Positions 713-33,168 of a stretch of DNA of 64,000 nucleotides are shown here, piece by piece. The DNA comes from Acidobacteriaceae bacterium. GTDB taxonomy: Bacteria > Acidobacteriota > Terriglobia > Terriglobales > Acidobacteriaceae. A program made the position numbers and the translations under genes. Every line of letters starts with the position of its first letter. Position 1 is the first letter of the stretch. A model generated the notes under the pieces. The model did not search any database. It was not told where the DNA came from and saw nothing but the letters and a program-made list of their open reading frames with translations. The DNA lies in assembly GCA_027306695.1 (NCBI GenBank), contig DAHUZH010000001.1, positions 1 to 64,000 of the forward strand, in the 5' to 3' direction.

Positions 713-943
713 TTATGAAGGAAACACGATGGAGTAACTCGTACTCCCACCGCCCTCGTCATTGCGTTTCAAAATGCCTTGGTGGACGAGAGCCAGGATA
801 TCTCGTGTGATCGTGTCTTGGGAGCACTTCGCCAGCTTCGCCTATTTTGACGTGGTGAGCTTGCCTTCAAAGCCCTCCATCATTCGATGAAGCACAAGTC
901 TCTGGCGTTTATTGAGGGATTGTGGCTCGTGGTCAGGCCAAGT
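713..943 (-). pseudogene. Fic-family protein C-terminal remnant
   Basis: One reverse frame reads SLNKRQRLVLHRMMEGFEGK, then LTTSK, an in-frame TAG, then AKLAKCSQDTITRDILALV and a glycine-rich GGGSTSYS ending at a TAA at 713-715. This matches the C-terminal winged-helix segment of Fic-family AMP-transferases, where the family usually has SKWAKLAKCS; the TAG sits exactly where the Trp codon belongs. No Fic core motif (HPFxxGNGR) is present upstream, because that sequence is now the IclR gene. It is therefore a truncated, nonsense-mutated relic that overlaps the IclR 3' end in another frame. Confidence 0.65.
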
Positions 944-1707
944 ACAGCTGTAATTTGATCTGCAAATGTTTGAATGACAGGTACCAGTTGCCTTTCTTTT
1001 CCGTGATTGAAACCGCCGGGCAGGAAGGGGACTCCCAGCGCGGCCAGAACGCCAATGCGCGGATTTCCGACGATGCAGGAAATATCGAGACCTGTGCGCC
1101 GACTGCTGTGCGCAACCAAGAACCCCTCCTCGCGGATTCGCTTGATTTCTGCCATAAGCTTGGTTCGGTCCGTTCTCCCCATTTCCTTATAAGTGGTATC
1201 CGCAGCAAGAAATCGAGATATTTTCTCCGCCTCTAAAAACGACATCAGCACGCGACCGGAAGCGGTTTTCAGCGGCAGCGCGCGATAGCCGACTTCAATG
1301 GACAGCCGGACGGGTTCGGGGCTCTCCGCCTGTGCAACGACGATCAGCATAGGGCCGCTGAGCACGCTAAGATGGCAGGATTCATGAATGGTTTCGGCCA
1401 GGTCTCGCATGGGTCCGGCAGATGCCTTTAATAACTGGTCGACAGGCGAGTGAGTATGCGCCAGTTCATACATTTTCAACGTAAGATGATAGCCGTCGGA
1501 AACGAGGTCGCGTGCAATGTAGGAACGTCTTTCCAGGGCGGCCACCATGCGAAATAATTCGCTCGATGTGCGGTCCAAGGTACGCGCGAGGGCGGTCAAC
1601 GACTGCGGGACCTCCGCGACGGACAGGGCTTCCAGGATGTCCAACCCTTTTTCCAGTGCTGGAACAAAATACTTCGGTTCTGCTCTTTTCTTCATGGACG
1701 GACGCAC
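880..1707 (-). CDS. IclR-family transcriptional regulator
   Basis: The 275-residue product has an N-terminal winged helix-turn-helix (about residues 15-75; ALEKGLDILEAL, LARTLDRTSSELFRMVAALE) and a C-terminal effector-binding domain (about 90-255; TASGRVLMSFL, LDISCIVGNPRIGVLAALGV). IclR proteins sense small organic acids and usually control a neighbouring catabolic operon. It lies 96 bases downstream of the binding-protein/CoA-transferase genes on the same strand and is their likely regulator. The GTG at 1707 opens the frame, and an ATG at 1695 (MKKRAEP) is an equally good start. The last roughly 17 residues, after ADQITAVLG, are read out of Fic-remnant DNA and are not part of the normal fold. 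Confidence 0.9.
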   Translation of the reverse strand: MRPSMKKRAEPKYFVPALEKGLDILEALSVAEVPQSLTALARTLDRTSSELFRMVAALERRSYIARDLVSDGYHLTLKMYELAHTHSPVDQLLKASAGPMRDLAETIHESCHLSVLSGPMLIVVAQAESPEPVRLSIEVGYRALPLKTASGRVLMSFLEAEKISRFLAADTTYKEMGRTDRTKLMAEIKRIREEGFLVAHSSRRTGLDISCIVGNPRIGVLAALGVPFLPGGFNHGKERQLVPVIQTFADQITAVLGLTTSHNPSINARDLCFIE

Positions 1708-1802: not shown

Positions 1803-3038
1803 TTACACATTCAAGTGACTGGTTTTTTCATCCGCCCGACGCATGAGTTGTTCCACGGGTGTATCGGTCTCTAGAACACTCAGTACGAGTTCGTCGATGA
1901 CCGATGCAATGCGCGGCCACGCTGGCGTCTGCGGAAGTTCCCGCACATTGCCATGCAATTGTTCCAGGCGATGGAAGAAGGGGACGGTCGTGTTTACCTG
2001 CGGGTCCGTCCAGGTTGATCGGCGGCAGCCTACACCACCTTCCGTAGTGAGCAACTTGTCCATCGCAGGCGAGGCGCAATGGCGCAAAAAGTCATACGCA
2101 AAGCGCGGATGAGGGCTTCCGGCAGCAATGGTCAGCAGCCAATAAATGTTTAACGAGGTACTGCACGCTCCATCCGCGTGCGGTATCGGGGCAATCTCCA
2201 CCAGTCCCTTCACTTTGGAATCTACGGTGGTTTCAGCGAACGCGGCAAAACCAAACCAGTTGACCATCATGGCCACTTCGCCAACTGCGAAGGCGAGACT
2301 GGCCTGCACAGAATCCATGTCACGACTGCGCGGATGGACAAAGGAATCGTCCCGGAGCAACTCTTTATAAAATCTGAGCGCCGCGGCCATCTCTGACCCC
2401 GTGAAGCGAACTTTCCCGGAAGCATCGCTCAATTCCCCCCCGCGGGTCCAAAGTTGTAGAAGAAAGTCGTAGACGGTATTGTGTCCATCGGGAAATGCGG
2501 CGAATACCGTGCCATAAAGCCCCTGTGCCGGGCGCTGAAAGAATTGCGCGGTTTGCCGAAACGTATCCCAGTCCTGCGGCACATGTAAAGGTGCGCCGAA
2601 TTGCTGTAGATAAGCCGCCTGTTCCTGGGGATTCTCAAACAGGTCTTTGCGGTAGATCAAACATTCCGGGCCATCGTGGTACGGAATGCCAAGAACTGCA
2701 CCATCGATCGTATGCAGACGTAATAGGGAAGGGGTCCAACCGTGCGGATAATCTTCCGGCGGGTCCTCCGCGATCTGTGGCGCAAGATCGAGCACAGCCT
2801 GCGATGCATGCGCCGTTGCCACCCAATCGGTGTTGATGAATGCCACGTCCCAGTCGCCGTTGCACAGTCCTTCGTGGATAAAAAGAGTTTCGTAGAGCGA
2901 GGGAAGCTCCATCGGCACGATTTCCAGCGTTAATCCACTCCCTGTGGTCGCATTCCAGATGTTCCACTGGTGTCGAATCGCCGCTTCAAAGGGATCAAAT
3001 TTTCGGACTGCGATGCGGAAGGTTCGCCGGGCGTTCAT
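1803..3038 (-). CDS. Extracellular solute-binding-protein fold, no signal peptide (1)
   Basis: This 411-residue protein resembles family 1 sugar ABC-transporter binding proteins: a start typical of the mature domain ([17 protein letters not shown]), the [14 protein letters not shown] region, and a central [13 protein letters not shown] / [13 protein letters not shown] segment like the hinge of such proteins. The protein begins where a mature binding protein would, with no hydrophobic leader or lipobox, so it should remain in the cytoplasm. Its start overlaps the CoA-transferase stop by four bases (ATGA), implying coupled translation. No ABC permease or ATPase gene is nearby. It may act as a cytosolic sugar- or acyl-binding protein working with the CoA-transferase; that role is inference. 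Confidence 0.75.
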
Positions 3039-4222
3039 ACATTTCCCTGGTTGGACGTCGATGAATTTTCCGTGCTCCCTGAAAGAGAAAATTCCCGCCT
3101 GAGCTGTTTTGTGTCCGCGCCCAGGCGAGGAGCGCCACGCTCACTGCGCAATATCGCTCCATCGATGCGAATAGGGCAACGTGTGGTCTGCATGCGAACA
3201 TTGTCGCCTCGAGTTATTTCCTGCACCATGTCGAGCGTCTGAAAACCTTCATGCTCCAGCAACTGGGTCCAGGTGTAGACATCGGCGCACCATACGTCGG
3301 CTGGTTCCAGAATGGAGAGCCAATGTTCTGTAGTGTGTGTTTTGAGGTGCTCGACCAGCAACCGCTTAATTTCGTCCCGGCGATCAAAGAGCGATTTAGG
3401 GTCGGAGTAGGCGAGCAGTTCCGGGCAATTTAGTAATTCACCCAGTTGTGGAATAGACCCCATCGCCAATGTCAAATATCCGTCGGCGGTGGCATAGATA
3501 CCATACGGCGCGCCAAGATAGGCATGTGCGTTATTAATAGTGCTTCGTTGCGGAAGTTGGCCTCCGTCGTTGAGGAACGTGGTTAGCACTTCAAACTGAA
3601 AGTCCATGATCGATTCCAGCAGGCTGACTTCGACTTTGCCGCCTTTGCCGGTTATTCCCCTTCGTACCAAACAAGCAAGGATCCCTTGCGCAAGATGAGC
3701 ACCAGCGTAAAGATCCGCCACGGCGATACCGAAGGGGACCGGAGGCTGGTCTGCGTTGCCGCTCAACCAGGGCAGGCCGGAGAGCGACTGCACCAGCAAA
3801 TCCTGTCCAGGTTTTTTTCGCCAGGGGCCGGTTTTTCCGTAACCGGAGATTTCTCCATACACGATGCGGGGATTCACTTCGCTCACCGATTCGTAATCGA
3901 AACCAAGTCTCTCGATGACGCCAGGCCGGAAGTTGTGAATCATGATGTCGGCATGCCGGAGCAATTTATTCAACTGCTCGCAATCCTGCTTATTCTTCAA
4001 GTCCGCAGCAAAGCTTTCTTTGTTTCGATTGATGGAATGAAACAGCGTGCTGTCGCCGTCTAATTCCAAGTTAGAGATATAAAGCTGGCGGCATAAGTCT
4101 CCCCCATCGGGACGCTCGATTTTAATTACCCGCGCTCCCAGGTCCGCCAAGCGCAGGGAAGCGGAAGGCCCAGATAGGAACTGGCTTAGATCGATGACCA
4201 GAAGCCCATCCAGAGGATTCAT
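3035..4222 (-). CDS. CaiB/BaiF family III CoA-transferase
   Basis: The 395-residue product begins with [24 protein letters not shown] and continues with [24 protein letters not shown] and [19 protein letters not shown], all classic for class III CoA-transferases. The catalytic aspartate that forms the acyl-anhydride is D170 in [10 protein letters not shown]. The enzyme moves CoA between carboxylic acids without a free intermediate. It sits between two signal-less binding-protein genes with four-base overlaps on each side (4219-4222 and 3035-3038), and a MaoC dehydratase gene diverges from the same promoter region. The cluster therefore probably activates and dehydrates an organic acid; the acid is unknown. 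Confidence 0.92.
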
Positions 4223-5391
4223 GATGCTCTCTCTTCCGCGTACGTTGTTGCAGCTAAAAGACGGTTCAATGCTTCGATTGCAATTCCTTCTTTACCACCA
4301 TCGGTCAGATGGCGATGCACGATGCGCCCCGCTTCATCTTGAAAATCGAGATATCCGTCAAAGCGCGGCCGGACATAGGCCGCATCCAAAGTGGGCAGCG
4401 TGTTGACGAAAAAATTATTGCAGCGCCGGTTGGCTTCCGCATCCAGCCAGGCGGAACGGTGTCCTGGCTGGCCGCCGGAATCCAGATAAAGCGTGGACTG
4501 ACATTCTGGACTGGCAACCAACTGCGCATATCTCGCAGCCACGTCTTTGTGTTGGCAAACGGTCGAAATGGCCAGCCCTGCTCCGCCTAGTGTGGATATC
4601 AACCTTGCATTGTTCTCCAAAGTCACCAGACCGCCGGTTTGCAGTGGGTGCCGGGCATAGCCTTTGCGGGAATAGTTGGAATATCCGTAAGCAAACGGGC
4701 AATACGCCACAGTCTCGCTGGTGGAAAGTTTTTCCCAGGTCGCGATTGGGTTGCGCGTGAAGCATTCCGGTCCGCACAGCAAAAGCAGTTGCCGCAGCCG
4801 GAACAGCGCCTCGGTCCCGACGGCCTCCGATACGACCTTGCCGGTATGTTGAAAAGGCCCTTCGCCCAGCGCGCCACATAGCATGTAGAAATTCATCAGG
4901 CTATCGATGGCGATTCCAGGCAGAATCACCAGGCCCTGCCTGGCAAGGTCCAATAATTCCTGCCACGTCTCTGGAACTTTTGCCTGGGCCCGCTCCAGCA
5001 GGTCAGGCCGCCAGCCGCTGATGGGCGCTGCGGCATCGATGGCAAGCGCGTATGGATGGCCCTCGTATCGATAGCTAGCATGGGAGGAGCCGACGGAGTT
5101 GGCCGCCTGGTCTGCAAGAAAATGGGATGCGATGTGTTCATCGAGCCGCAGCAGCGCGTTGCGATTTGCGGCTTTCGCTATGGATGGATGATCGACGACC
5201 AGCAGATCGTACTGCTTGGCGAGCACTTCAATGGGCGCATCGGCAAATGCCTGCAAAGAACGCACATCCCACTGAATTGTAGCTTCGGGGCACAATTCGC
5301 AAAAGCGTTGGGCAGTCGCCACCATCGGCAGGTGTCCGCGAGTGTGGTTCCAGGTAATTCCGCGCAGATGGACCGGTCCAGGATTACTCAT
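4219..5391 (-). CDS. Extracellular solute-binding-protein fold, no signal peptide (2)
   Basis: This 390-residue protein is the first gene of the three-gene unit. It starts directly with [19 protein letters not shown], followed by [13 protein letters not shown] and [20 protein letters not shown], a pattern of sugar-type periplasmic binding proteins after signal cleavage. There is no leader peptide or lipobox, so a cytoplasmic location is expected. It differs in sequence from the second binding-protein-like gene in the operon, so the two are not a recent duplication. A sigma70-like promoter lies 24 bases upstream. Function unknown; a ligand carrier or enzyme partner for the CoA-transferase is the likeliest reading. 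Confidence 0.7.
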
Positions 5392-5526: not shown

Positions 5527-5979
5527 ATGCAGCACGAGCAGCACTTTGAAGACTACACGGCCGGAACCCGGCGTGAGACTACAGGTAGGACCATCACAGA
5601 GACGGACATCGTGCTCCATGCCGGTCAGACGGGAGACTTCTATCCTCATCACATGGATGAAGAGTGGTGCAAGACGCAGCCATTCGGAAGGCGTATCGCC
5701 CACGGCACGTTGATATTCAGCGTGGCGGTTGGAATGACTGCAGGGGAAATCAATCCTTGCGCCATGTCGTATGGTTATGACCGGCTTCGTTTCATTCGGC
5801 CAGTTTTTATTGGAGATACGATACGCGTGAGCGTCACGGTACGCGAAAAGCGCGATGACCCCAAGCGTCCCGGACATGGCATGGTGGTGGAGACTTGCGA
5901 GGTATTCAATCAAAAGCAGGAACTGGTGCTGGTCTGCGACCACTTGCTGCTGGTGGAGCGGAGAACACCGGCCGCGTAA
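5527..5979 (+). CDS. MaoC-family dehydratase (hotdog fold)
   Basis: The ATG at 5527 ([13 protein letters not shown]) is preferred over an upstream in-frame ATG at 5428 because the family begins at this FEDYTAG segment; this gives 150 residues. The hydratase motif is clear: [13 protein letters not shown] with the catalytic Asp-His pair, then [14 protein letters not shown], followed by [17 protein letters not shown]. MaoC enzymes hydrate or dehydrate enoyl-CoA thioesters. It diverges from the CaiB operon and is followed 28 bases later by the racemase-like gene, so it probably handles a CoA ester made by the CoA-transferase. Confidence 0.88.
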
Positions 5980-6007: not shown

Positions 6008-6670
6008 ATGGCGAAAACACTGGCGCTGATTCACACCAGCCCCGTTTTGACACCTCTTTTCACGGCCCTTTGCAAACAGCATCTCGTCAACGTGCAGTGG
6101 TTTCACATGGTGGATGAATCTCTGATTCGTGACACGATTGCGAACCAGAGATTGCGAAAGCCGACGATTCGGCGGCTGATTTCCATGGTGGAGTCTGCAC
6201 AAAACGCGGGCGCCGATGCCGTTCTGGTGACATGCTCTTCGATCGGCCCCGCCGTCGATATTGCCAAAGATATTTTTGATGTTCCTGTCATGCGTGTCGA
6301 TGAGGCGATGGCAGAGCAGGCTGTGCAGCACGGCCCGCGCATCGGCGTGCTTGCCACCTTGCGCACCACACTGGAACCCACAATGGAATTGCTCCACCGC
6401 AAGGCTGAAGCTGCGAATGTCAAGGCGACGTTGGTAGAGGGGCTTTGCGACCAGGCGTTTGAAGCTGTGCTCGCAGGCGACACCGCATCCCACGATCGCA
6501 TCGTCAGCGCGGCGCTCCTCGGTATGGCCCCCAACGTCGATGTTGTGGTCCTCGCGCAGGCGTCGATGGGCCGCGTGGTTGCGAACCTGCCAGCAGGCAG
6601 CACCGCAGTGCCGATCTTAGCCAGCCCCGAACTCGGCATCATGCGGATGAAGAAAATACTTGAGGCATAA
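6008..6670 (+). CDS. Asp/Glu/hydantoin racemase-superfamily protein
   Basis: The start chosen is the ATG at 6008 (MAKTLALIHTSPVL), about nine bases after an AAAGGTC stretch, giving 220 residues. The first active-site cysteine motif is VLVTCSSIGPAVD and the later conserved region is VVVLAQASMGRV, where the usual second Cys is replaced (QAS). Loss of one of the two acid/base cysteines argues against a classical two-base racemase and for a related reaction such as decarboxylation or isomerisation. It lies between the MaoC and MFS genes on the same strand, probably in one operon. The substrate is unknown. Confidence 0.75.
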   Translation: MAKTLALIHTSPVLTPLFTALCKQHLVNVQWFHMVDESLIRDTIANQRLRKPTIRRLISMVESAQNAGADAVLVTCSSIGPAVDIAKDIFDVPVMRVDEAMAEQAVQHGPRIGVLATLRTTLEPTMELLHRKAEAANVKATLVEGLCDQAFEAVLAGDTASHDRIVSAALLGMAPNVDVVVLAQASMGRVVANLPAGSTAVPILASPELGIMRMKKILEA

Positions 6671-6700: not shown

Positions 6701-7952
6701 TTGAAAAAACGATATATCGTGCTGTTTCTTCTCGTCGTGTTGTCGGTCCTGACCTTTCTCGATCGACTGGCGATTGCCGTTTCCGGTCCGCGTATTCAGG
6801 ACCAACTGCATATTTCCTCCACGGCCTGGGGATGGATTCTAGGCGCGTTCGTGCTCTCCTGTGGCATCTTTGAAATTCCGTCTGGCGCGATGGGAGATCG
6901 CCGCGGACAGCACCTGGAGCTGACCCGCATCGTCGCCTGGTGGTCTCTTTTTACATCCTTGACCGGCGCATGCCGCTCTTTCTGGCAATTGCTGGCCGTC
7001 CGATTTTTATTTGGAGTGGGTGAAGCGGGCGCATATCCAAACGCTTCGGGAGTCATCTCTGGTTGGTTTCCAAAACAGGAGCGCGCGCGAGCGCAAAGTT
7101 TTGTCTGGGCCGCCAGTCGTCTTGGCGGAATGCTGGCGCCGCTGCTGCTGGTACCGATGGAAACCAAATTGGGCTGGCGGGCCATCTTCGCCGTGCTGGG
7201 GGTCTTGGGTGGTGTGGGCAGTCGTCTGGTGGAGATGGTTTCACGATCGGCCTTCGATGCAGCCTGGAATCCAGCCCCAGGAGCTGGCGGAGATTGGCGA
7301 ACCACAACTGGTGGAAGATCGAGATGGAGTGCCGTGGCGGCGGCTATTGACGGCGCGGCCGCTGTGGCTGATCACGGGGGCCTACTGGTGTTATGCGTGG
7401 GGATCGTGGTTTTATTTCGCGTGGTTTCCAACCTGGCTGGTGCGTGGAGCTGGCTTCAGCGAAGCACAAATGGGAATCTTCGCGGCACTGCCGTTTGCCT
7501 GCGGCATCGTTGGAAATCTAGTGGGCGGTGTAGTGGGGGATGACCTGGTGCGCACCCGCGGAGTGAGTATGGCACGTCGCATCATGCTGACATCGACTTT
7601 GCTGCTCTCCGCCGTTCTGTTGCTATGTATGAGCGTGGTCCATGGTCACGCCGCCGTTGTGGTGGTGTCGTCAGTTGGCTTTGGCGTCATGGACCTGATG
7701 CTGCCTTCTGCCTGGGCCTTGTGTCTGGACATAGGTGGGCCATTTGCCGGCACCGTGACTGGCGTGATGAATACTGCCGGCCAGTTCGGCGGGCTATGTT
7801 CCACCATACTTTTTGGCTATGTGGTGCGGGTGATGGGGAACTATCACGCCGCATTGTGGGTGATTGCCGCAATGGTATGCACCAGTGGGCTATTGTTTTC
7901 GCAGGTGGATGCCAGCCAGCCACTGCTTCAGGATGTTCGAGAAGCATTTTAA
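6701..7952 (+). pseudogene. MFS transporter with +1 frameshift
   Basis: The gene opens at a TTG (6701) behind GAGGAAGG and encodes a typical anion:cation-symporter-type MFS N-half: FLDRLAIAVSGPRIQDQL, GAFVLSCGIFEIPSGAMGDRRG and FLFGVGEAGAYPN. Near 7198-7212, in and after a run of five G, the reading shifts by one base. The C-half then continues in the other frame (WAVVWWRWF, LWLITGAYWCYAWGSWFYF, LPSAWALCLDIGG) to a stop at 7950-7952. The two halves together make one full-length transporter of about 415 residues. Removing one G from the run restores a single frame, so this is either a recent inactivation or a sequencing error. It would import the acid or sugar used by the flanking enzymes. Confidence 0.8.
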
Positions 7953-9256
7953 GCGTGGCCGCGTAGGACGTTCTGGAAGAAGGATGCCGCACCAACCTGG
8001 CCGCCCTTCAGGACAAGCTCCAGCCCGTGGAATGCGGCATCGTCCGCATAGGTGCTACAGAGCGGTGCGCCAGGCTGCAGACTGGCCAGAAAACGCAATG
8101 CATAAAGACCAAGCTGCTGCACTGCATGGCTGGACGTGTCCCCACCGGCAACGACGACACGTCGCACCCCGCTCTGCTGGATCATGTTCCGTAAGAGCCG
8201 ACCCATCCGCATGGACAGTTCTCTGCTGGATGTAAGCGGTGAAATATCCTGCGACCCCAGCGCGCTATAAAGTACGATGCTCAATCCGGCTGCGAGTTGC
8301 CGCACCGCTTCACGCAACAAATTCTCCTGGGTTTCGGCAGTGTCTTGGAGAAGCGCATGGGGGTCGATGGCGATACACGTAAATCCATTGGCCATGGCCC
8401 AGCGAATCTGTTTTTCTGTCGCCGGAGAACAGCTTCCAGAGAGGACGAGGAGCCGATCGGCGCGCGGCGCGGAGAATGCGGCGTGCTGTGGAGACAGCAT
8501 GTCACTGGCGCGCCAGTGCTCGATCAGTGCGTAGGCCGCGCCGGAACTGCCAACGACAAATTGCGGCGACGATTGGCCCAGGGAGTCCAGCAAAGAACCT
8601 ATGCTGCGTAAAGACTGCTGGTCCAGGCCATCGAATACGATGGCTCGATGCTCCTTCGACAGCCGCTGATATATCGCGGCGACATCGGGTTGCCGTAGAG
8701 AAAATACATCCAGAAGTCCGATGTCGCGGGGTGTCTGCTGGGCAAGGTGTAGACGCAGATCGCTTTCCGTCATCGGGGTAACTGGATGATGGCGCATGGT
8801 TGGATGATGGTCTATGCGATAAATCCGCTGGCCAGCCGCGGCGAACAAATTTCCGAAGAGCACGTAGCGTTGCAGGTGCGGCGCCGCAACCACGACGGGA
8901 ACGCAGGCCCCGCCGAAGATGTCCTGTCCAATCTCCAAGGCCCTGCCGATGCTGCCGATTTTGGGCGAGCTGTCGAATGTCGAACAGACTTTATAGAGGC
9001 AGATGGGAGCGCCAAGGGTTTTCAGAAATGAAAAAACCTCCGGAAGATTTTCCGACATCCACTGCGGGTCGCGGCTGCGGCTTTCGCCTGCAATTCCAAT
9101 GGCCTGACAGTCCGCAAAGGCGGCAAGATGGCGGGCCTCCGGCACGCAGGGGAAAAGCACGGTTGGGATTCCGTTACTGGCCAGGGCCTCCAGAACATCG
9201 GTCGAGCCGGTAAAGTCATCGCCATAATAGGAAAAGCGCAGATTGTGAATTTGCAT
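7949..9256 (-). CDS. DUF1537 four-carbon/branched sugar-acid kinase (OiaK-like)
   Basis: The 435-residue product has both halves of the DUF1537 kinase family: the N-terminal substrate domain opens with SYYGDDFTGSTDVLEAL and includes FDSSPKIGSIGRALEIG, and the C-terminal nucleotide-binding domain has LLVLSGSCSPATEKQI and VVAGGDTSSHAV. Family members phosphorylate D-threonate, D-erythronate, 3-oxo-tetronates or 3-oxo-isoapionate using ATP. It starts six bases after the RuBisCO-like gene stop and has no PdxA2/OtnA dehydrogenase beside it. Pairing with a RuBisCO-like protein instead points to 3-oxo-isoapionate kinase (OiaK). That substrate call is inference from context. Its end overlaps the MFS gene by four bases in convergent orientation. 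Confidence 0.85.
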   Translation of the reverse strand: MQIHNLRFSYYGDDFTGSTDVLEALASNGIPTVLFPCVPEARHLAAFADCQAIGIAGESRSRDPQWMSENLPEVFSFLKTLGAPICLYKVCSTFDSSPKIGSIGRALEIGQDIFGGACVPVVVAAPHLQRYVLFGNLFAAAGQRIYRIDHHPTMRHHPVTPMTESDLRLHLAQQTPRDIGLLDVFSLRQPDVAAIYQRLSKEHRAIVFDGLDQQSLRSIGSLLDSLGQSSPQFVVGSSGAAYALIEHWRASDMLSPQHAAFSAPRADRLLVLSGSCSPATEKQIRWAMANGFTCIAIDPHALLQDTAETQENLLREAVRQLAAGLSIVLYSALGSQDISPLTSSRELSMRMGRLLRNMIQQSGVRRVVVAGGDTSSHAVQQLGLYALRFLASLQPGAPLCSTYADDAAFHGLELVLKGGQVGAASFFQNVLRGHA

Positions 9257-9262
9257 CGCGGC

Positions 9263-10549
9263 TCAGTCGGGAAAAGTATTTAAGGACTCGCGCAATTCCT
9301 TGTGCGTTTGCGCATAGCTCTCCAGCGGAGTTCCCGACATGGCTGCGTCCCAAGCCTGATGCAGGCTCGCAACCCCGGCGGCTGGCCCGGAAGGATGCGC
9401 CAGGATGCCGCCGCCGCAGGCAAAGATCAGATCCGTCGAACCGAGCGCGCGGTACGTATCCGGCGCTTGCCGGGCTGACTGGCCGGAAGAAAAGACAGGC
9501 ATGATTTCGCAGCCGAATGCGGGCGGCGCAAACATCGGTGTGAGGCATGCACGCGCCGACGCGATGACAGAATCGTCCGCTTCGCAGAATTTATTCCTGA
9601 GTCCGTTGACGTGAGTGTGGTCGATTCCCGCCAACCTCCAGAATTTTTGATACGCCACAAAGCTCATCCCGATTGCAGGGCTGCGACTGAGCATGCCCCA
9701 CCCGTTGCGATGCCCGTGGATGGCAACCTTCGCATGTTTGCGAAGCAGCGTAAGCGCAGGCAGTCCGATGCTGTTCATACTGGCCATGGCGCAGGTCCCG
9801 CCTGCCGCGTAGACCCATTCCAGGCGCTCCAGCATCTCCTCCATTTCGCCCGTGATGTTGATGGCGTACATTACATTTTTTCCAGTGGAGGCGGCGTGTG
9901 CGGTGAGCGTTTCCATCACGGCATGGAGCCGGTCGCGAAATGGAGAATGAGGGCCGTTCGATTGCAATTCATCATCTTTAATGAAATCGATGCCAGCTTC
10001 GGCAAGACTGCGCGCCTGCTGTGCCGTCGCCTTGGGCGTCAGCCCCAGGCTCGGCTTCAGAATCGTTCCGATCACAGGGCGTCCATACACTCCGCACAAT
10101 CGGCGCGTACCCGGCACGCCAAACTGCGGACCCTGGTAGCGTTCGAGAAACCGAGAAGGCAGTTGCACGTCGAGAAGCTTCAACCCGGAGAATGGTTTAA
10201 GCTCGGAAAGGTTCCCGGCCACCGCCGCGAGCAGGTTCGGCAGCGAGGGGCCCATATTTTCCAGGGGCCAGGAGATCTCGACCTCGGCGCTGCGACGCAC
10301 TGGCGATTCCGAAACAGACTTTGGCACGCCCGACCCAGGCAGGGAGGGCCGATCGACAATTTCCAGTTCGGCGATTTCCTCCACGCGTGCGGCGTAACGC
10401 TCGCGCAGTTCGTCCGTCTCGCCGGGCACGCGAACGAAGGTGCCGGTCGACTGTTCCCCGGCCATCATCTCCGCAGCCTGCTGCAAGGGGAACGCCGTCT
10501 CGATCCAGTAGCGCGCGCGAATTCTGCTATCCACAATTTTGCCCGTCAA
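9263..10549 (-). CDS. RuBisCO-like protein (OiaX/OiaT-type candidate)
   Basis: This 428-residue protein has the RuBisCO large-subunit fold. The conserved lysine is K165 in GTILKPSLGL, and the carbamylation/metal site is complete: K191, D193 and E194 in FIKDDEL. Histidines follow in IHGHRNGWG (278, 280), a loop-6-like segment in HVNGLRNKF, and an ACGGGILAHPSGPAAG phosphate-binding stretch. The second lysine of the KPKxG motif is Ser, and there is no small-subunit gene, so carbon fixation is unlikely. With the adjacent DUF1537 kinase it matches RuBisCO-like enzymes that decarboxylate or cleave 3-oxo-isoapionate-4-phosphate in apiose/apionate catabolism. The fold is certain; the substrate is inferred. 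Confidence 0.88.
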   Translation of the reverse strand: MTGKIVDSRIRARYWIETAFPLQQAAEMMAGEQSTGTFVRVPGETDELRERYAARVEEIAELEIVDRPSLPGSGVPKSVSESPVRRSAEVEISWPLENMGPSLPNLLAAVAGNLSELKPFSGLKLLDVQLPSRFLERYQGPQFGVPGTRRLCGVYGRPVIGTILKPSLGLTPKATAQQARSLAEAGIDFIKDDELQSNGPHSPFRDRLHAVMETLTAHAASTGKNVMYAINITGEMEEMLERLEWVYAAGGTCAMASMNSIGLPALTLLRKHAKVAIHGHRNGWGMLSRSPAIGMSFVAYQKFWRLAGIDHTHVNGLRNKFCEADDSVIASARACLTPMFAPPAFGCEIMPVFSSGQSARQAPDTYRALGSTDLIFACGGGILAHPSGPAAGVASLHQAWDAAMSGTPLESYAQTHKELRESLNTFPD

Positions 10550-10563
10550 GTATCGGTTGCTCG

Positions 10564-12408
10564 TTAGGCATCGGTTTTCTGCAGATGGAAATAGGTGTTG
10601 TACCGCTCATTCTGAATTGTGTACCACGGTCGAAACTGCAAATTTGTCTGCGCCATTGGATACTCGAAAATACTCGATGAGCCAAGGAGCGGACGCAGTC
10701 CCTGCGGCAGACGGAGTGGCGTGCTGTACAGGTCAGCAGGAGGAGTTGCGGCGACATACATCAGTGGGCCGCGCATCAACGCTGCTGTCTCGGGATGCAG
10801 ATCGTCGACCGGCTCGGTGCGGAATGCGAAGGGCAATGTCACCTCCAGGACATCGTTGTTCTTCCATGTGCGATGGACAGCGGCAAACGTTCCTTTTTCC
10901 GCTCGAATGGAAATCGGCCCTCCATTCACAAAAATTTGCGGCGCCGCAGAGATCCATGCCGGGATGCGCACATAGAGCGTGAACTCGATTGGAGTGGGCG
11001 CAACGACGCGAAGCGCTGTCGAATCCCTATAAGGATACTCGGTCTGCTGGACTAGATGGATCGACGTCCCATTCATATTCCATCGCACTTCCGATGGAGT
11101 GAACAGGTTCACGTAGAGACCGTCCGCATCGTGGAAATAGATGTTCCGCGGATAATCGGCAACGCCCTGCACCAGCGTGCCGGAGCAGCACGGCCACTTC
11201 TGCGGGTAATATCCCTTCTGCGCCAGCGCGTGATAGTTGGAATAGTAAAAATAGTTTCCGTTGCCGTCGGTATCTTTTGCGCCCAGCAGCGTGTTGTAGA
11301 GCACGCGCTCCAATCCATCGCCATAGCGCGACTCGCCAGTAAAGCGCAATAGATAACGGGCCAGCTTCATCTGCGCATAGCATCCGCACGGAGTTTCAAA
11401 ATGGTCGGTGGTCGCGTTCAGGCTGTCATAGAGTTGGCCGGTATGGGGCTGCACGAATTTTTCTTTCGGCCCCCATCCGCCCGAAGCGTACTGCTGCGTG
11501 GCCACCAGCATGTCCCACGCATGCTGGATGGCCTCCAGATGTTGCGAATCACCCAACACAAGATAGGCCTTGGCGGCCGAGCTGAGCGCGATGACATGGC
11601 TGTACGCGTGTTCTCCGGGCAGTACATTCTGGCTCTGCGCCAAGGGTGCAAAAAACTCGGCATTCAGTAAGTATTTACGGGCCAGATCCAGATATTGCCG
11701 GTTGCCGGTCAGTGCGTAGGAATTGAACAGATTCTCCGGCAGGATATAAGTTTCGTCATAAGGGGCCTGCTTCGGACTCTTTGGGCCGCGATCATATCCG
11801 TGGTCTGGGATGTAAGGCAGAGCACCCTCGATGACGCGCGGTAAAAGCTCGCGCGCCTCCCGGACCCCGGCAAGGTTGTAGGCGTCGAGCAGGCCAATTT
11901 CGTATTTGTCCAGGATGTAGCACGGCCAGGTGGTCGAGGCAACTTTGCTGGCATACGGATAATTCTCCGGCCCGAGCGTCGCAGAGTATCCGCGAACCAG
12001 GGCGCGGACCTTCGCTGTAGCCGCCGGATCTCCCGTGCTGCGCGCATAACGCGACAGCCCAGAGATGTACTGTCCCAGCGAATGGCCCGGCACAAAACCG
12101 TTGGCGTCGTACCATCCGCCCATGTCCTGGCCCGGTGCGGGCAGTCCCGCGCGCTGCCGATAGACTTTCAATAGACGATCGTTGTCCAAGGCGAGATAGC
12201 TGGCATGCACCCGGTCGAACTGGTCCTTCAAGGGTCCGCCGGTGAGTTGTACATCGGCATAGTCGAAGGTGTGCAAACGCTCACGAGAGGAAGCTGTCTG
12301 GGCAGGAGACCCGAAGGCGCGAGAGATTTGTGCGGAAGCCGCCGTCGCCCCTGCTCCCAGGATGAAGTTGCGTCGGGAAATGCTCGCGAAACTGTATGTC
12401 CGTTTCAC
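10564..12408 (-). CDS. GH127 beta-L-arabinofuranosidase, Tat-exported
   Basis: The 614-residue protein opens with a twin-arginine signal (ISRRNFILGAGATAASA) and then the GH127 start FDYADVQLTGGPLKDQFDRV. Other family hallmarks are GHSLGQYISGLSRYARSTGD, the metal-site regions HFETPCGCYAQ and WPCCSGTLVQGV, the latter carrying the paired cysteines of which one is the nucleophile in GH127, and NIYFHDADGLYVNLF. It should remove terminal beta-L-arabinofuranose from plant glycans outside the cytoplasm. It lies just upstream of the RuBisCO-like gene on the same strand (14 bases) and diverges from a GH78 gene across an AT-rich region. Confidence 0.85.
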   Translation of the reverse strand: MKRTYSFASISRRNFILGAGATAASAQISRAFGSPAQTASSRERLHTFDYADVQLTGGPLKDQFDRVHASYLALDNDRLLKVYRQRAGLPAPGQDMGGWYDANGFVPGHSLGQYISGLSRYARSTGDPAATAKVRALVRGYSATLGPENYPYASKVASTTWPCYILDKYEIGLLDAYNLAGVREARELLPRVIEGALPYIPDHGYDRGPKSPKQAPYDETYILPENLFNSYALTGNRQYLDLARKYLLNAEFFAPLAQSQNVLPGEHAYSHVIALSSAAKAYLVLGDSQHLEAIQHAWDMLVATQQYASGGWGPKEKFVQPHTGQLYDSLNATTDHFETPCGCYAQMKLARYLLRFTGESRYGDGLERVLYNTLLGAKDTDGNGNYFYYSNYHALAQKGYYPQKWPCCSGTLVQGVADYPRNIYFHDADGLYVNLFTPSEVRWNMNGTSIHLVQQTEYPYRDSTALRVVAPTPIEFTLYVRIPAWISAAPQIFVNGGPISIRAEKGTFAAVHRTWKNNDVLEVTLPFAFRTEPVDDLHPETAALMRGPLMYVAATPPADLYSTPLRLPQGLRPLLGSSSIFEYPMAQTNLQFRPWYTIQNERYNTYFHLQKTDA

Positions 12409-12515
12409 AAATTGGCCTGCGACAGAAACTATTTCAAATATAAAAAACTATTTTATATTATGGATGGGTCATAATGGATGACGATCTAAGATCATTGCGA
12501 AACCCATCGGAGTGT

Positions 12516-15041
12516 ATGCAAAAAAGAATGTTCCTCGCACTCTTTCTGTTGCTCGGCTGGATGCCTGGCCCCCTGCGTGCGCAAAATGGCTTTCCAGACG
12601 GTCATCTGGACCCCACCCGTAACATTCCACAAACGGAGGCGCACAGTCCGCATGCTGGCCTGCCAGAAGAATATATATGGACGGCGGGAGATGCGGCTGC
12701 GCTGCATCCCCAGAATCATTATTCGTTCGCCCATCAGAATGAAAAGGCCGGGCCGCATTATTTTCGGGCGACATTTAAGGTCAAGGACGTTCCATCGGTC
12801 GCCACTTTATATGTAGCCGGGCCGCGCTCCGCCATCATGTTTGTGAACGGACGCAAGGTGGGTGAAGTGAGTAGCGACCTCACCTCGCCGCTCGGCATCC
12901 ATGTGTATACGACGGATGTAACGAAGGCCTTACGCGCGGGAAACAACACGATCGCATTGCAAGTGGTCCGAGGGACCGGAATTGTGAGCGTCGATCCGTC
13001 GCCTGTCGTTAAGCAGCAGACCTTCGGAGAAATTTTGGCGGTCAAGATTGTTCCAGCGGCAGCGGGAGTGTTTACCGCCCCGATTCTAATCAGCGATGGC
13101 AGTTGGAAGAGTCAGCTTGCTGCGCCCATGGGATGGGAACAGCCGTCCTTTGATGACAGTGCGTGGGACCCGGTGCAGACGTTAGGCCCGGTGGAAAGCT
13201 CCATCGATATGTTTCAGTGGAACGCGGATGCCGGCATGTATGACTGGCCCGGCTATGACGGCGCCTCATCTTTTCTGCGGCATTATTCGCTGCAACCGGA
13301 AACAGTGACGCACATCTTCCTAGGACGCAGTCATTTTGAAAACCTCGCCGCTCTGACAACGCCACGCAACTCGACAATGGAAATATCGGCGGAATTTACC
13401 GTGAAGCCTGCTACAAAACTTTTACCGGATGAGGAAGCTCCGAGCCTGCTGCTCGATTTTGGCCGGGAAGTTGCGGGCCGTGTGGAGCTGCAATTGGATT
13501 GCGATTGCGATGCGCTGGTCACGATCCAGTACGGCGAGTCGGAAGAAGAGGCGATTCTAGGCGGCGATTATCTGGGCATCAATCTGCTGCGCGTGCCCGC
13601 GTACGGGGTTGCGTATGGACCGAAAAGCGGCTTTCGCTATGTCAAGATTCGTTTTGTCGGCGGCGCGCCCCAGACCCGCTTCAAGGCCATTCAACTCGAT
13701 GGTATTGAATATCCCGTCGATTATGAGGGGTCATTCCAGTCTTCAGATCCACTGTTGAACAGAATCTGGGAGACCGGCGCGTACACCATGCATCTGTGCA
13801 TGCAGGATGATATTTGGGACGCCGTCAAACGAGACCGCGGGCGTTGGATTGGCGACCTGGATGTTGGCGGGCATGTCGTCAATGCAGTCTTCGCAGACCA
13901 TTTTCTGATGGAAGACACCATGACGCGCCTGATCGGGAAGGCCCCGGTCACGGACGATGTGAATGGGATACCCGGGTATTCCGCGCTTTGGGTCACTTCG
14001 CTGGCCGACTATTATCGCCATACGGGAAGCAAGAATTATCTGAGAAGAATGCATCCGCGTCTGGTTGAGCTATTGCGGTTTATGGATTCCGGCTTTGACA
14101 GCAAAAATCTTTTTGTCAATCCTGGAAAGAAGTGGCTCTTCGTCGATTGGTCGCCGGGGCTGTATGCGGACACTCCGGCAGCAAGACGTGCCACGGAAAT
14201 CGAATTCTATCGCGCCTATCGTGAAGGAGCGTATCTGCTGCGTGAAGTTGGCGACAATAGCACGGCGGAACACTATGAGCAGCGTGCAACGGCGTTGAAA
14301 ACCGCGACCGACAAATATCTCCTGGATCCAGCGACGCAGACGTATGGCATGCGCTGGCAGACCAATGCCATGGCGATTCTTTCCGGATTGGCAACGCCGG
14401 CACAGTATCCAGCGATCTGGAGCAAGGTTCTCTTCAGTGTAGGGCAGGAAGACCCTGACGCGCCCATCATTAGCCCCTATTACAACTACTATGTCGTGAC
14501 CGCGTTGGCGGAATCTGGTCACAGGCAGCAAGCACTGGATTGGATTCGGAAATACTGGGGCGGCATGCTGGCCGAAGGGGCCACGTCATTTTGGGAATCG
14601 TACGACCTGCGATGGCCAAAGAACCATTTCCATGAGTCGCTGCAGGCGGACGGCACCAGCGGATTTTATGTGAGCCTGGCGCATGGCTGGTCCAGCGGGC
14701 CAACCGCATGGCTGATGGAACAGGTGCTTGGCATTCAGCCGACGGGAGCAGGCTTCAGTAGTGTCACCATCCGCCCGGATCTGATCGATCTACAATGGGT
14801 GAAGGGAGCAGAGCCAACGCCGCATGGATTGATTGTGTTGGAGTTGAAGAAGCAGCAGGGAACCGCGATCATACTGGATATACCCGCTGGCGTGGATGCG
14901 CAAGTGCTGGTTCCCATCATGCAGTCATCGGCAAAGGTTTATGTGAACGGCGCGACGATGCGCTCGACTCTTGCGGAAAAGAACCAGCGCGCCAGCATTC
15001 ACTTGGACCGCGCAGGGCATTACACCATCGAAGCACACTGA
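12516..15041 (+). CDS. GH78 alpha-L-rhamnosidase, secreted (1)
   Basis: The ATG at 12516 is chosen because GGAG lies four bases upstream and it begins a signal peptide (MQKRMFLALFLLLGWMPGPLRA, cut near RA-QNG); an ATG at 12474 would only add an unlikely leader. The 841 residues comprise an N-terminal galactose-binding-like region with WRATFKVKD-type strands, a beta-sandwich, and the (alpha/alpha)6 barrel. The barrel carries the signature AVKRDRGRWIGDLDVGG with the general-acid region, then GATSFWESYD and SLAHGWSSGPTAWLMEQVLG, ending in a beta domain. The expected reaction is hydrolysis of terminal alpha-L-rhamnose from pectic chains or glycosides. Confidence 0.85.
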   Translation: MQKRMFLALFLLLGWMPGPLRAQNGFPDGHLDPTRNIPQTEAHSPHAGLPEEYIWTAGDAAALHPQNHYSFAHQNEKAGPHYFRATFKVKDVPSVATLYVAGPRSAIMFVNGRKVGEVSSDLTSPLGIHVYTTDVTKALRAGNNTIALQVVRGTGIVSVDPSPVVKQQTFGEILAVKIVPAAAGVFTAPILISDGSWKSQLAAPMGWEQPSFDDSAWDPVQTLGPVESSIDMFQWNADAGMYDWPGYDGASSFLRHYSLQPETVTHIFLGRSHFENLAALTTPRNSTMEISAEFTVKPATKLLPDEEAPSLLLDFGREVAGRVELQLDCDCDALVTIQYGESEEEAILGGDYLGINLLRVPAYGVAYGPKSGFRYVKIRFVGGAPQTRFKAIQLDGIEYPVDYEGSFQSSDPLLNRIWETGAYTMHLCMQDDIWDAVKRDRGRWIGDLDVGGHVVNAVFADHFLMEDTMTRLIGKAPVTDDVNGIPGYSALWVTSLADYYRHTGSKNYLRRMHPRLVELLRFMDSGFDSKNLFVNPGKKWLFVDWSPGLYADTPAARRATEIEFYRAYREGAYLLREVGDNSTAEHYEQRATALKTATDKYLLDPATQTYGMRWQTNAMAILSGLATPAQYPAIWSKVLFSVGQEDPDAPIISPYYNYYVVTALAESGHRQQALDWIRKYWGGMLAEGATSFWESYDLRWPKNHFHESLQADGTSGFYVSLAHGWSSGPTAWLMEQVLGIQPTGAGFSSVTIRPDLIDLQWVKGAEPTPHGLIVLELKKQQGTAIILDIPAGVDAQVLVPIMQSSAKVYVNGATMRSTLAEKNQRASIHLDRAGHYTIEAH

Positions 15042-15062: not shown

Positions 15063-16169
15063 TTACGTCCATGGCGTCGACCGTGCCACGGAGATGCCGC
15101 GCACTTCATGCGGCCATTTTCCAGAGACCGCGCAGTAGAAGTGATAGAGGCTGTCCTGGTGATAGACCAGCGATGGCTTGTGTGCAAAGGTTTCATCGAC
15201 GCTTCCATGCTGCCCAACGTCAATTATGATTTTGGCTACTTTGGTGAAGTGAAATGGATCCTTCCCAAGCGCTAACAGATCGCGCGCTTTGCCCTGGAAG
15301 TTGAAGCCGTAATAGAACATGGCCCACTGCTTTCCATTTCTATATACAGCCGGATCGCTGGCGAAGCGATCGTCCCAGCTACTGTTTCCTGGGCCATTCT
15401 GTAGGATTGGGTTTTTAGCATAGCGCTTCCAGGTTTTTAAGTCGGTGGACGTGGCGACGCCAGTCTGCTCATGCCAACCGCCTCCTTCCGCTTTAGGAAG
15501 GTTGTGTGTCTTTGCGTTGTAGAACAGATAGTAGGTGCCTCCGTCTTCGACAAGGCACGGTTTGTAAAGTCCGCCCTGCTCCCAGGCTGTTGCGTTCGGA
15601 TCGTTCGGGCGAAGGACCGGTTCGGCCAATTCCCAGTGCATTAGGTCCTTGCTCCAGCATAAGCCAATGACTGCAGGGCCAGCTTCGTATCCCGCGCTGG
15701 GATATGCGTGGTAAGCGCCGAGATAACGTCCGTGAATTTTCTTCAGGTTTCCCGGGGACTTCAGTTGGTTTTCGCGGACGATCCAGTTCATTGCTACGTT
15801 GTAGCGCGTGATGGAGGACTTGGGATCGCGATGCAGAATGCATCCTAGTTTTTTCCAATCCACCAGATTTTCTGAAGAAGCCAAGCCTGTCTGGTATCCC
15901 GTACTGTCATATCCCATATACGTCATATAAAATCGACCATTGGCGTGGAAGACAAACGGGCCATCCACAGACCGGCTATCGAATGCAGATGGATCTGTAG
16001 AGGCGGACAATACGAGTTTGCCGAATTTGTAAGGTGTCTCGTACGGCGAGGCATCTGTGGCAGGAAGGTCCTCCCCCAACATAGATGGCGGGTAGGACAA
16101 GGCAGTTCCAGCCAAAGAACAGGCCGCTGCTGCAAGAAAATCTCTGCGTGTGTGGTTCCGTACTTGCAT
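15063..16169 (-). CDS. Five-bladed beta-propeller glycosidase (GH43/GH130-like), Tat-exported
   Basis: A twin-arginine signal (HTRRDFLAAAACSLAGTALS) precedes a beta-propeller of about 330 residues. Blade repeats are visible as VDGPFVFHANGRFYMTYMGY, KPCLVEDGGTYYLFYNAK, FASDPAVYRNGKQWAMFYYG and HKPSLVYHQDSLYHFYCAV, each with the Asp/Glu-rich turns of GH43/GH32/GH130-type enzymes, and ASSENLVDWKKLG-type interblade strands. Which family it belongs to cannot be decided by eye. It is convergent with the first GH78 gene and sits in a run of secreted glycosidases, so it probably removes an arabinose-, xylose- or mannose-like residue from the same glycan. Confidence 0.7.
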   Translation of the reverse strand: MQVRNHTRRDFLAAAACSLAGTALSYPPSMLGEDLPATDASPYETPYKFGKLVLSASTDPSAFDSRSVDGPFVFHANGRFYMTYMGYDSTGYQTGLASSENLVDWKKLGCILHRDPKSSITRYNVAMNWIVRENQLKSPGNLKKIHGRYLGAYHAYPSAGYEAGPAVIGLCWSKDLMHWELAEPVLRPNDPNATAWEQGGLYKPCLVEDGGTYYLFYNAKTHNLPKAEGGGWHEQTGVATSTDLKTWKRYAKNPILQNGPGNSSWDDRFASDPAVYRNGKQWAMFYYGFNFQGKARDLLALGKDPFHFTKVAKIIIDVGQHGSVDETFAHKPSLVYHQDSLYHFYCAVSGKWPHEVRGISVARSTPWT

Positions 16170-16343: not shown

Positions 16344-18440
16344 TCAATGAGTGACGCTTGCCTGTTCCGATACTACGGCGACCCCTTCCGGGTCGAGATA
16401 AAGTGCTTCGACAGGTGGTCCAGCCACCAGCCAGTTCCGCATAGGTGAAGGAAGCGGAATTGTTACCGGTAGTTCTCCGTGATTGATAAAAATGAAGACC
16501 TGCGTGTTGCCTCGCTCACGCCGGCATACTTCAACATTGGCCGGCACAGCTCCAAATGCGGGCCGTACATGCGCTCCGGCGACCATCCATTGCACGGCAT
16601 CGTGCATCAGAGACGCATCGAGAATAGTTCCCAGATAAGCGATTTTTCCTTTGCCAAAATTTTGAACAACCATTGCCGGATGACCATCTAGCCAGCCATT
16701 ACTCTTTTCGTAACTCAGTAGGACGCGCACATCCTTTGCGTGAATGGACAGTGGCTCGGCCCAGATACTGGCGCGTCCTTGCCCCCAAATCCCGCGGACC
16801 GGTACGCTATTTTCCAGAGCATAGTATTGCGAAACACGCCCCCCCAGGTCGGCGGCCAGCGGTCCGGGCTGACGTTCTATGTTGAGCGCGTCGTAGCCAT
16901 TCTTCATGCCGGATCGGGGACCCAATACAAGATGACCGCCGTGGCGCACGTAATTTCGCAGGTGGTTCGCGAGATCCTGCGAAATGACATTCAGGCTGGG
17001 AGCAACCACCAGCTTGTATTGGTCCAGCGGCGCGTCTGCGCTGATGATATCGACGGATTGCGTGAGGTCACGGAGCGGACGATAGTAGTCGAGCAGCACC
17101 TGGAGTTGATCGTAGTCGCGAGTGTGACGTTGGAAATCGATTGCCCAACGGCTGTCATACGTGTAAAGAATGGCAACCTGAGAGACAGGCCGCGTTCCTT
17201 GCAATACAGGCGCAGCAAGCGCAAATTCGCGACCTATCTGTTGAATCTCGGAATAGATCGGCAATGGGCCGCCATCGGGGCCGACGATTGCGCCGTGGTA
17301 TTCCTCTTGTCCGTTGAGTGCGTCGCGCCATTGCCAGTACAACACTGCGTCGGCCCCATGCCCGATGGCCTCCCAGGCCATGGCCCGCGTTTCTCCTTTG
17401 TCCAAGCTGTTATTGACCGGCGCCCAATTGACTGAGCCGGGCTGCATCTCCATGACCCAGAAATTCTTGCGTTTCCATCCACGCACAAAGTCATGCATGG
17501 CGCCGTTTCTATAAGGATGAAGATGGCCTTCTCCCACGTAATCGTCCCAGGATGCGAGGTCGAGGTCTTCTGAGATCTTGTAATGGTCGAAATTCGCGGA
17601 CCATCCCAGTCCGCCGAGATTGGTCGTGATGAACTGCTGCGGGTCGGCATACTGCCGTATCGCATCGATCTGGTTGCGTTGGAAAGAGCGCCATGTGTCG
17701 CTGACGAAATGGCGATGCTCCAACATCAGTCCTGGATTCTCCGGGCCTGCGGAAAGTGGAATCTGGTTCCAGTTCGTATACATTTGGCTCCAGTAGGCCG
17801 TGGTCCAGTTGGCATTCAGTGCATCGAGTGTTTTGTAACGCTGCTGGAGCCATTGCTGGAACATCCGCTGCGTCTCTGCGTCGAAGGACTCGTCCGTATA
17901 TTCATTGCCAATTTGCCATCCGATTACATCTGGATCGTGGCCGAATCGCAGTGCAAGCTGGCGAACAATCCGCCGGCTGAGTTCGCGGTACTTGGGATTG
18001 CTATAGGAAAACTGCCGTCGTCCACCATGCTGGGCGCGTATGCCTTGCGCATCCACGCGTAGAGTCTCGGGGTATTTTTGCGTCAACCAGGCGGGAGGCG
18101 CATCCGTAGGCGTGCCGATCACAATCAAGATATGGTGTCGTTCTGCATCGCGGATGGCGCGCTCCATCCAGTCCAGGTGGTATTGTCCTTCGGCTGGCTC
18201 CAGTCTGCTCCATGCAAATTCCCCGATGCGGGCCACACGAATGTTGGCGGCTTCCATCAACGCGAGATCTCGATTCCATCGCCGCTCCGGCCACTGTTCG
18301 GGATACCATGCCGCTCCCAGCAATAACGGAGGCACAGGGTTGGCACTCGATGGCTTGCTGGCGACACAAAAATTCCAGGAGAGCAACAGCACCGATGCAA
18401 ATAGCGCCAAGGCCCGGCGATGTCGAGACCACTTCCGCAT
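16344..18440 (-). CDS. GH42 beta-galactosidase, secreted
   Basis: The ATG at 18440 is preferred: it follows AGGAAA and begins a signal-like stretch (RRALALFASVLLLSWNFCVA). An in-frame TTG at 18491 overlaps the fucosidase stop and is an alternative. The 698-residue product shows GH42 order: LLLGAAWYPEQWPERRWNRDL, then acid/base Glu180 in GWQIGNEYTDESF and nucleophile Glu331 in NFWVMEMQPG, then a trimerisation-like domain and a C-terminal beta domain. A signal peptide is uncommon in GH42, which is usually cytoplasmic, so periplasmic or secreted action on pectic galactan side chains is suggested. It is downstream of and probably co-transcribed with the GH29 gene. Confidence 0.87.
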   Translation of the reverse strand: MRKWSRHRRALALFASVLLLSWNFCVASKPSSANPVPPLLLGAAWYPEQWPERRWNRDLALMEAANIRVARIGEFAWSRLEPAEGQYHLDWMERAIRDAERHHILIVIGTPTDAPPAWLTQKYPETLRVDAQGIRAQHGGRRQFSYSNPKYRELSRRIVRQLALRFGHDPDVIGWQIGNEYTDESFDAETQRMFQQWLQQRYKTLDALNANWTTAYWSQMYTNWNQIPLSAGPENPGLMLEHRHFVSDTWRSFQRNQIDAIRQYADPQQFITTNLGGLGWSANFDHYKISEDLDLASWDDYVGEGHLHPYRNGAMHDFVRGWKRKNFWVMEMQPGSVNWAPVNNSLDKGETRAMAWEAIGHGADAVLYWQWRDALNGQEEYHGAIVGPDGGPLPIYSEIQQIGREFALAAPVLQGTRPVSQVAILYTYDSRWAIDFQRHTRDYDQLQVLLDYYRPLRDLTQSVDIISADAPLDQYKLVVAPSLNVISQDLANHLRNYVRHGGHLVLGPRSGMKNGYDALNIERQPGPLAADLGGRVSQYYALENSVPVRGIWGQGRASIWAEPLSIHAKDVRVLLSYEKSNGWLDGHPAMVVQNFGKGKIAYLGTILDASLMHDAVQWMVAGAHVRPAFGAVPANVEVCRRERGNTQVFIFINHGELPVTIPLPSPMRNWLVAGPPVEALYLDPEGVAVVSEQASVTH

Positions 18441-18487
18441 TTTCCTGGAAACCTCCAAAGCAGCGAACACCTTTTCAGCTATGCAAC

Positions 18488-32950: not shown

Positions 32951-33168
32951 GTGTGTCCTCCAGGTGCGGCCCGTCATTTTATTTCAGAAACGGCTGCGAA
33001 AGCCATACGGGTTTTTGATGCAAGTTGCAATAGCACTGTTATTACAGAACTTTTCCCAGCTTCTCTTATCCCTCCGCCAGTTGTCAATAAATATTGCGGG
33101 CCGGAATGGCTGCAGCCTTGCGTCGCAAGGATCATGGGCCGTGTGAATGTTACCTTCTAAAATATTTC

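Follow-up and report, generated by a model that had tools for sequence, protein, structure and literature searches.

A RuBisCO-like protein and a DUF1537 kinase among rhamnogalacturonan-II-type glycosidase genes of an acidobacterium: a candidate ApnO-independent sugar-acid module

Few functions of RuBisCO-like proteins (RLPs) are, to our knowledge, known. In the breakdown of apiose, ApnO and ApnL provide the route to 3-oxo-isoapionate, and the OiaT route from apiose is said to yield 3-phosphoglycerate and glycolate. The closest described systems pair the kinase OiaK with an RLP, either a decarboxylase (OiaX) from Agrobacterium radiobacter K84 or a transcarboxylase/hydrolase (OiaT) from Xanthobacter autotrophicus (Carter et al. 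2018, via PMC6302742). Kinases of the same DUF1537 fold and chemistry act in the tetronate pathways (OtnK, DtnK), and Bacteroides thetaiotaomicron degrades rhamnogalacturonan II (RG-II; BT0996, BT1003), the glycoside hydrolase family 137 (GH137) domain of BT0996 being the first enzyme cutting RG-II side chain B (PMC9843283). Here we describe a locus in the first 64,000 nucleotides of contig DAHUZH010000001.1 of an Acidobacteriaceae bacterium (assembly GCA_027306695.1; this whole stretch is referred to as the window), in which an RLP and a DUF1537 kinase stand among RG-II-type glycosidase genes. Cumulatively, our findings favor, with a probability of about 0.6, an OiaK/OiaT-type module that does without ApnO and receives a sugar acid from RG-II, the case of aceric acid included. 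That the cluster lacks ApnO and ApnL and keeps company with RG-II glycosidases suggests that the OiaK/RLP module has a second substrate.

The RLP (428 aa) and the kinase (435 aa), whose gene lies 6 bp downstream of that of the RLP, were located by an open reading frame check of the window, and both the frames and the Pfam and NCBIfam matches agree with the first-pass annotation that had paired them (Table 1). The RLP matches RuBisCO_large (238 bits) and RuBisCO_large_N, and its closest match in the PDB is 3nwr, itself an RLP. Its top NCBIfam family is OiaX (NF042437), with 449 bits, below the curated cut-off of 700 but far above type III RuBisCO (238 bits) and 2,3-diketo-5-methylthiopentyl-1-phosphate (DK-MTP-1P) enolase (178/127 bits). 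The kinase, carrying the SBD_N and NBD_C domains, has OiaK (NF042436) as its top family, with 457 bits, again below a cut-off of 700, and scores 210 bits as a 3-oxo-tetronate kinase (OtnK) and 73 bits as a D-threonate kinase (DtnK); it groups with OiaK in the kinase tree. The OiaK cut-off is narrow, because the kinases of the Rhizobium etli OiaX locus (473 bits) and of an ApnL-positive Phyllobacterium locus (418 bits) miss it too. The scores and trees were also searched for the two placements that the earlier annotation had named as fatal to its proposal, in the DK-MTP-1P enolase or the D-threonate kinase clade, and neither was found; against MtnW, the DK-MTP-1P enolase, the RLP reached 127 bits where 513.6 are required, and in the tree it lies outside MtnW. 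No small-subunit gene adjoins the RLP, whose neighbors are the GH127-type enzyme and the kinase, and no tetronate dehydrogenase gene is near the pair, in agreement with the first-pass annotation on both points. The locus differs from the tetronate pathways in lacking an LtnD-type dehydrogenase, OtnI and OtnC and having an RLP in place of the class II aldolase.

Alignment to a form I RuBisCO places K191, D193 and E194 of the RLP at K201, D203 and E204 and K165 at K175, while Ser167 stands at K177, which bears out the earlier reading of a serine for the second lysine of the KPKxG motif. This serine is no peculiarity of the window protein, since it is fixed in all sampled OiaT-type relatives. The RLP keeps the catalytic Glu, Asn and His of RuBisCO positions 60, 123 and 327, in place of which R. 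etli OiaX carries Asp, Gly and Gln. With its Xanthobacteraceae relatives from ApnO/ApnL loci it shares these residues and 61-63% sequence identity, against 46% with R. etli OiaX. In the RLP tree, which sampled these Xanthobacteraceae relatives in place of the characterised X. autotrophicus OiaT itself, the window protein falls in a GH127-linked clade (25 rows, approximate likelihood-ratio support 89) within a 33-row clade (96), both nested among ApnO-linked, OiaT-type RLPs and with R. etli OiaX outside. Genes for triose-phosphate isomerase and RpiB are present at the R. etli OiaX locus, and neither is found beside the window pair. On the basis of the identity, the tree, the three residues and the absence of these two genes, we predict that the RLP is an OiaT-type transcarboxylase/hydrolase rather than the decarboxylase OiaX, a DK-MTP-1P enolase or a RuBisCO.

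Using as query the ApnO of the Phyllobacterium locus, whose ApnL passes the curated cut-off, we detected no homologue of ApnO or ApnL in the genome of the window (completeness 91%, 381 contigs), so that the two genes by which a D-apiose/D-apionate pathway would be recognized are both missing. The same result was obtained for the other acidobacterial carriers of the cluster that were tested, near-complete relatives and a single-contig genome included. Each of these genomes has one RLP and one OiaK-like kinase, except G407, in which no kinase was found, and the conserved acidobacterial cluster contains no dehydrogenase gene. The apionate reading of the first-pass annotation is supported only in part: both proteins do fall among 3-oxo-isoapionate kinases and RLPs, but an apionate pathway in this organism is not supported, the entry enzymes being absent. 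Compared with the OiaK/OiaT pathway, the window also lacks the apiose ATP-binding cassette transporter, and its pair is instead linked to GH127 and GH137 glycosidases, a DgoT-type transporter and a racemase-fold protein.

Comparison of the window with 80-kb acidobacterial stretches, 60-kb sphingomonad stretches and several shorter loci revealed a cluster kept across Acidobacteriota, sphingomonads and one unclassified proteobacterium, which consists of the GH127-type enzyme, RLP, kinase, a major facilitator superfamily (MFS) transporter, the racemase-fold protein, GH42, a five-bladed-propeller enzyme (the GH137 homologue), GH29 and GH78. Judged by its gene families, it is a glycosidase cluster of a kind suited to RG-II side chain B, to which a sugar-acid importer and the racemase-fold protein are joined. 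The GH137 homologue matches structures 5mt2, 5muj and 5mui of the BT0996 GH137 domain (5mt2 at 8e-31 over residues 42-366) and keeps the Glu of 5mt2 that is Gln in 5mui; its 137 bits against NF049877 lie below the curated cut-off of 1800, a model of the whole 1400-aa, two-domain BT0996, of which the window protein has one domain. As in the B. thetaiotaomicron system, the other glycosidase families of the window would suit side chain B. The GH127-type enzyme retains the Zn-Cys center (E338, C341, C407 and C408 in the alignment), and its model is closest to GH146 BT0349 (Z 35.2, 26% identity). Identification of it as an aceric acid hydrolase was rejected, as it scores 112.6 bits against the BT1003 family NF049879 (cut-off 950) and is nearer to GH146 arabinofuranosidases by both sequence and fold. 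The MFS gene is split over two overlapping reading frames, broken near position 7204, which may represent an assembly error or a pseudogene; its orthologues are intact, and an intact one matches DgoT, the D-galactonate transporter (6e9n, 1.8e-34), and TIGR00893, the protein being by family a sugar-acid importer.

The racemase-fold protein has a single invariant Cys, the second motif reading LAQASM in nearly all of 22 aligned sequences, and so has only one of the two catalytic cysteines of Asp/Glu racemases (PF01177). Its model (pLDDT, predicted local distance difference test, 95) has the aspartate racemase fold (Z 22); arylmalonate decarboxylase is among the fold matches without being the best, and the function is not readable from the match. 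Of 396 acidobacterial genomes, 9 carry the gene, eight of these being among the 10 RLP carriers (Fisher P = 3e-14), and 12 carry GH137, seven of them RLP carriers (P = 3e-10); 31 RLP-bearing acidobacterial genomes, some of them scored ApnO-positive by detection at the locus level, divide into 12 with GH137 only, 18 with ApnO only, none with both and one with neither (P = 9e-8), although the genomes are kindred and these P values overstate independence and are not clean probabilities. GH127 was rejected as a marker of the variant, since L015 and L024 combine it with ApnO, and GH137 separates the groups better. Outside the cluster, the racemase-fold gene lies near LacI and GntR regulators, an aldo/keto reductase and an amidohydrolase, which suggests sugar metabolism and no particular reaction.

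Because the pair sits among RG-II genes without the usual apiose enzymes, this soil acidobacterium probably digests a rare branched sugar acid related to the apiose acids, perhaps aceric acid. We infer the following scheme. Exported glycosidases of the GH137, GH78, GH29, GH42 and GH127 types would trim an RG-II-like pectin side chain, and the DgoT-family transporter would take up the released sugar acid. As the conserved cluster has no dehydrogenase, entry would have to be redox-neutral; the one-Cys racemase-fold protein would probably prepare the sugar acid, for example by suprafacial aldose/ketose isomerization, and a one-base proton transfer on the same face would suit its fold. The kinase would phosphorylate the terminal CH2OH beside the ketone of a branched 2-hydroxy-3-oxo acid, and the RLP, by OiaT chemistry akin to the RuBisCO reaction, would shift the carboxyl group and hydrolyze a C-C bond, giving 3-phosphoglycerate and a second acid.

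Aceric acid, 3-C-carboxy-5-deoxy-L-xylose, is a branched sugar acid of RG-II side chain B. Of the possible substrates we find it the most attractive, since by structural reasoning the keto isomer of the acid would equal 3-oxo-isoapionate plus one methyl group: aldose/ketose isomerization alone would yield HOCH2-CO-C(OH)(COOH)-CH(OH)-CH3. An aceric acid pathway made of the importer, the one-Cys racemase-fold isomerase, the kinase and the RLP, with no dehydrogenase, is nevertheless a tentative proposal. In it, isomerization would give the 2-keto form of the acid, phosphorylation would follow at C1, and the RLP would cleave the product into 3-phosphoglycerate and L-lactate, or else the product would be decarboxylated to a 5-deoxypentulose 1-phosphate; even with the two endings taken jointly we would hold it only tentatively. 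Its appeal lies in the occurrence of the acid in side chain B, in the conserved GH137/GH78/GH29/GH42/GH127-type set accompanied by a sugar-acid importer, in a route that needs no dehydrogenase, as in the cluster, and in the likeness of the keto isomer to 3-oxo-isoapionate. Against it stand the GH127-type enzyme, closer to GH146 arabinofuranosidases than to BT1003 and below the cut-off of the BT1003 family, and the report that the 2-O-methyl-fucose in side chain B is not a substrate of GH29 enzymes (PMC12282258). Our full-text literature search found no paper on the breakdown of aceric acid by any microbe or by an RLP. If aceric acid is the substrate, four cytoplasmic or membrane proteins make its breakdown directly testable.

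A further alternative is ordinary apiose/apionate catabolism, in which the pair would act on 3-oxo-isoapionate(-4-phosphate) and unrelated enzymes encoded elsewhere would replace ApnO and ApnL. Several observations lean this way or count against the favored module. The RLP and the kinase are nested within ApnO-linked clades, and the active site of the window clade is nearly identical to that of the ApnO-linked, OiaT-type RLPs, with consistent differences at T35 and F297 only, so that the substrate may be the same and the active-site positions proved uninformative as a specificity marker. Sphingomonads that carry the same cluster and a single RLP have ApnO and ApnL in six of the seven genomes tested, with ApnO 15-26 kb from the RLP, and an eighth genome (L008) also has ApnO, which Sphingomonas kyeonggiensis lacks; as these genomes carry GH137 as well, they break the exclusion between GH137 and ApnO, and their pair may serve plain apionate. 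The racemase-fold protein, moreover, occurs away from the RLP in many ApnO-positive acidobacterial genomes, which, together with L028, L029, L032 and L050 having both genes, weakens the idea that it is a one-for-one substitute for ApnO, and we know of no PF01177 member that isomerizes sugars. The kinship of the genomes behind the Fisher values belongs with these points. Nevertheless, the tested acidobacterial carriers, a one-contig genome among them, lack both ApnO and ApnL, their conserved cluster has no dehydrogenase, and none of the RLP-bearing Acidobacteria scored combines GH137 with ApnO, and we hold ordinary apionate catabolism, like the aceric acid pathway, only tentatively.

With the described OiaK/OiaX pathway (A. 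radiobacter K84; R. etli p42f, L134) the window shares the kinase and RLP pair and the best curated hidden Markov models, NF042437 being the top family of the RLP. That the RLP is a plain OiaX-type decarboxylase is however unlikely, given that the RLP stays under the 700-bit cut-off which R. etli OiaX clears with 784 bits, that the two differ at the E60, N123 and H327 positions, and that no triose-phosphate isomerase or RpiB gene lies beside the pair. The broken MFS gene might indicate that the cluster is in decay here and its RLP and kinase are out of use. This is very unlikely, because all remaining cluster genes are open and conserved, and an error of one base in an assembly of 381 contigs would explain the break equally well. 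We therefore retain, as the favored reading, an OiaK/OiaT-type module that works without ApnO on a sugar acid derived from RG-II.

Table 1. Features of the window, with coordinates, strand and basis of assignment.
Feature	Coordinates	Strand	Basis
RuBisCO-like protein, OiaT-type (predicted 3-oxo sugar-acid phosphate transcarboxylase/hydrolase)	9263..10549	-	NCBIfam, tree, catalytic residues
DUF1537 (SBD_N/NBD_C) kinase, OiaK-like	7949..9256	-	NCBIfam, kinase tree
MFS sugar-acid transporter, DgoT (anion:cation symporter) family	6701..7952	+	overlapping reading frames, intact orthologue
Asp/Glu-racemase-fold protein, one invariant Cys; partner of the RLP among the acidobacterial genomes sampled	6008..6670	+	PF01177, model, co-occurrence
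GH127/GH146-like furanosidase, exported (twin-Arg SRR motif)	10564..12408	-	Pfam GH127 catalytic domain, 175 bits
GH78 alpha-L-rhamnosidase-like	12474..15041	+	Pfam
GH137-like beta-L-arabinofuranosidase (RG-II side chain B)	15063..16169	-	BT0996 GH137 domain homology
GH42 beta-galactosidase	16344..18491	-	Pfam, 384 bits
GH29 alpha-L-fucosidase	18488..20110	-	Pfam, 348 bits
GH78 alpha-L-rhamnosidase	20694..23474	+	Pfam, 310 bits
IclR-family regulator (accessory, common to L056 only)	880..1707	-	Pfam
Accessory operon: solute-binding-like protein, CaiB-type CoA-transferase, second solute-binding-like protein	1803..5391	-	Pfam
MaoC-type hydratase (accessory)	5527..5979	+	Pfam

Elsewhere in the window, a gene at 31430-32977 that the first-pass annotation had called GH140-like matches DUF6298/Collagen_bind_2 and not the apiosidase domain; the Pfam Apiosidase domain (PF13204) occurs instead in a protein at 40895-42562, 30 kb from the pair, whose gene adjoins an IolE-like gene, with DhaK/DhaL and an LsrF-like aldolase near. 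In the accessory operon, the two solute-binding-like proteins (1803-3038 and 4219-5391) flank the CaiB-type CoA-transferase with 4-bp overlaps, and both look cytoplasmic, as no signal peptide is evident by eye. The whole set recurs in L056 and parts of it on the Croceibacterium plasmid (L082/L097); the MaoC-type hydratase is also found in L003, in L056 and on the L082 plasmid.

Pairs of an RLP and a DUF1537 kinase were also observed in other contexts. One group, on Caballeronia, Bradyrhizobium, Chimaeribacter and Azospirillum plasmids (L135, L137, L138, L142), is accompanied mostly by tripartite ATP-independent periplasmic (TRAP) or MFS transporters and by short-chain dehydrogenase/reductase (SDR) or LysR genes. 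ApnO was not detected at any of the four loci, and a search of the whole plasmids of L137 and L138 did not find it either; the group probably has another substrate again. The haloarchaeon Natronosalvus rutilus carries such a pair on a plasmid (L136), with an aspartate/glutamate racemase family gene and SDR genes near. Finally, on a plasmid of Streptomyces sp. NBC_00184 (L139), the pair adjoins GH78, with GH28, GH2 and beta-galactosidase genes close, a pectin context in a distant phylum.

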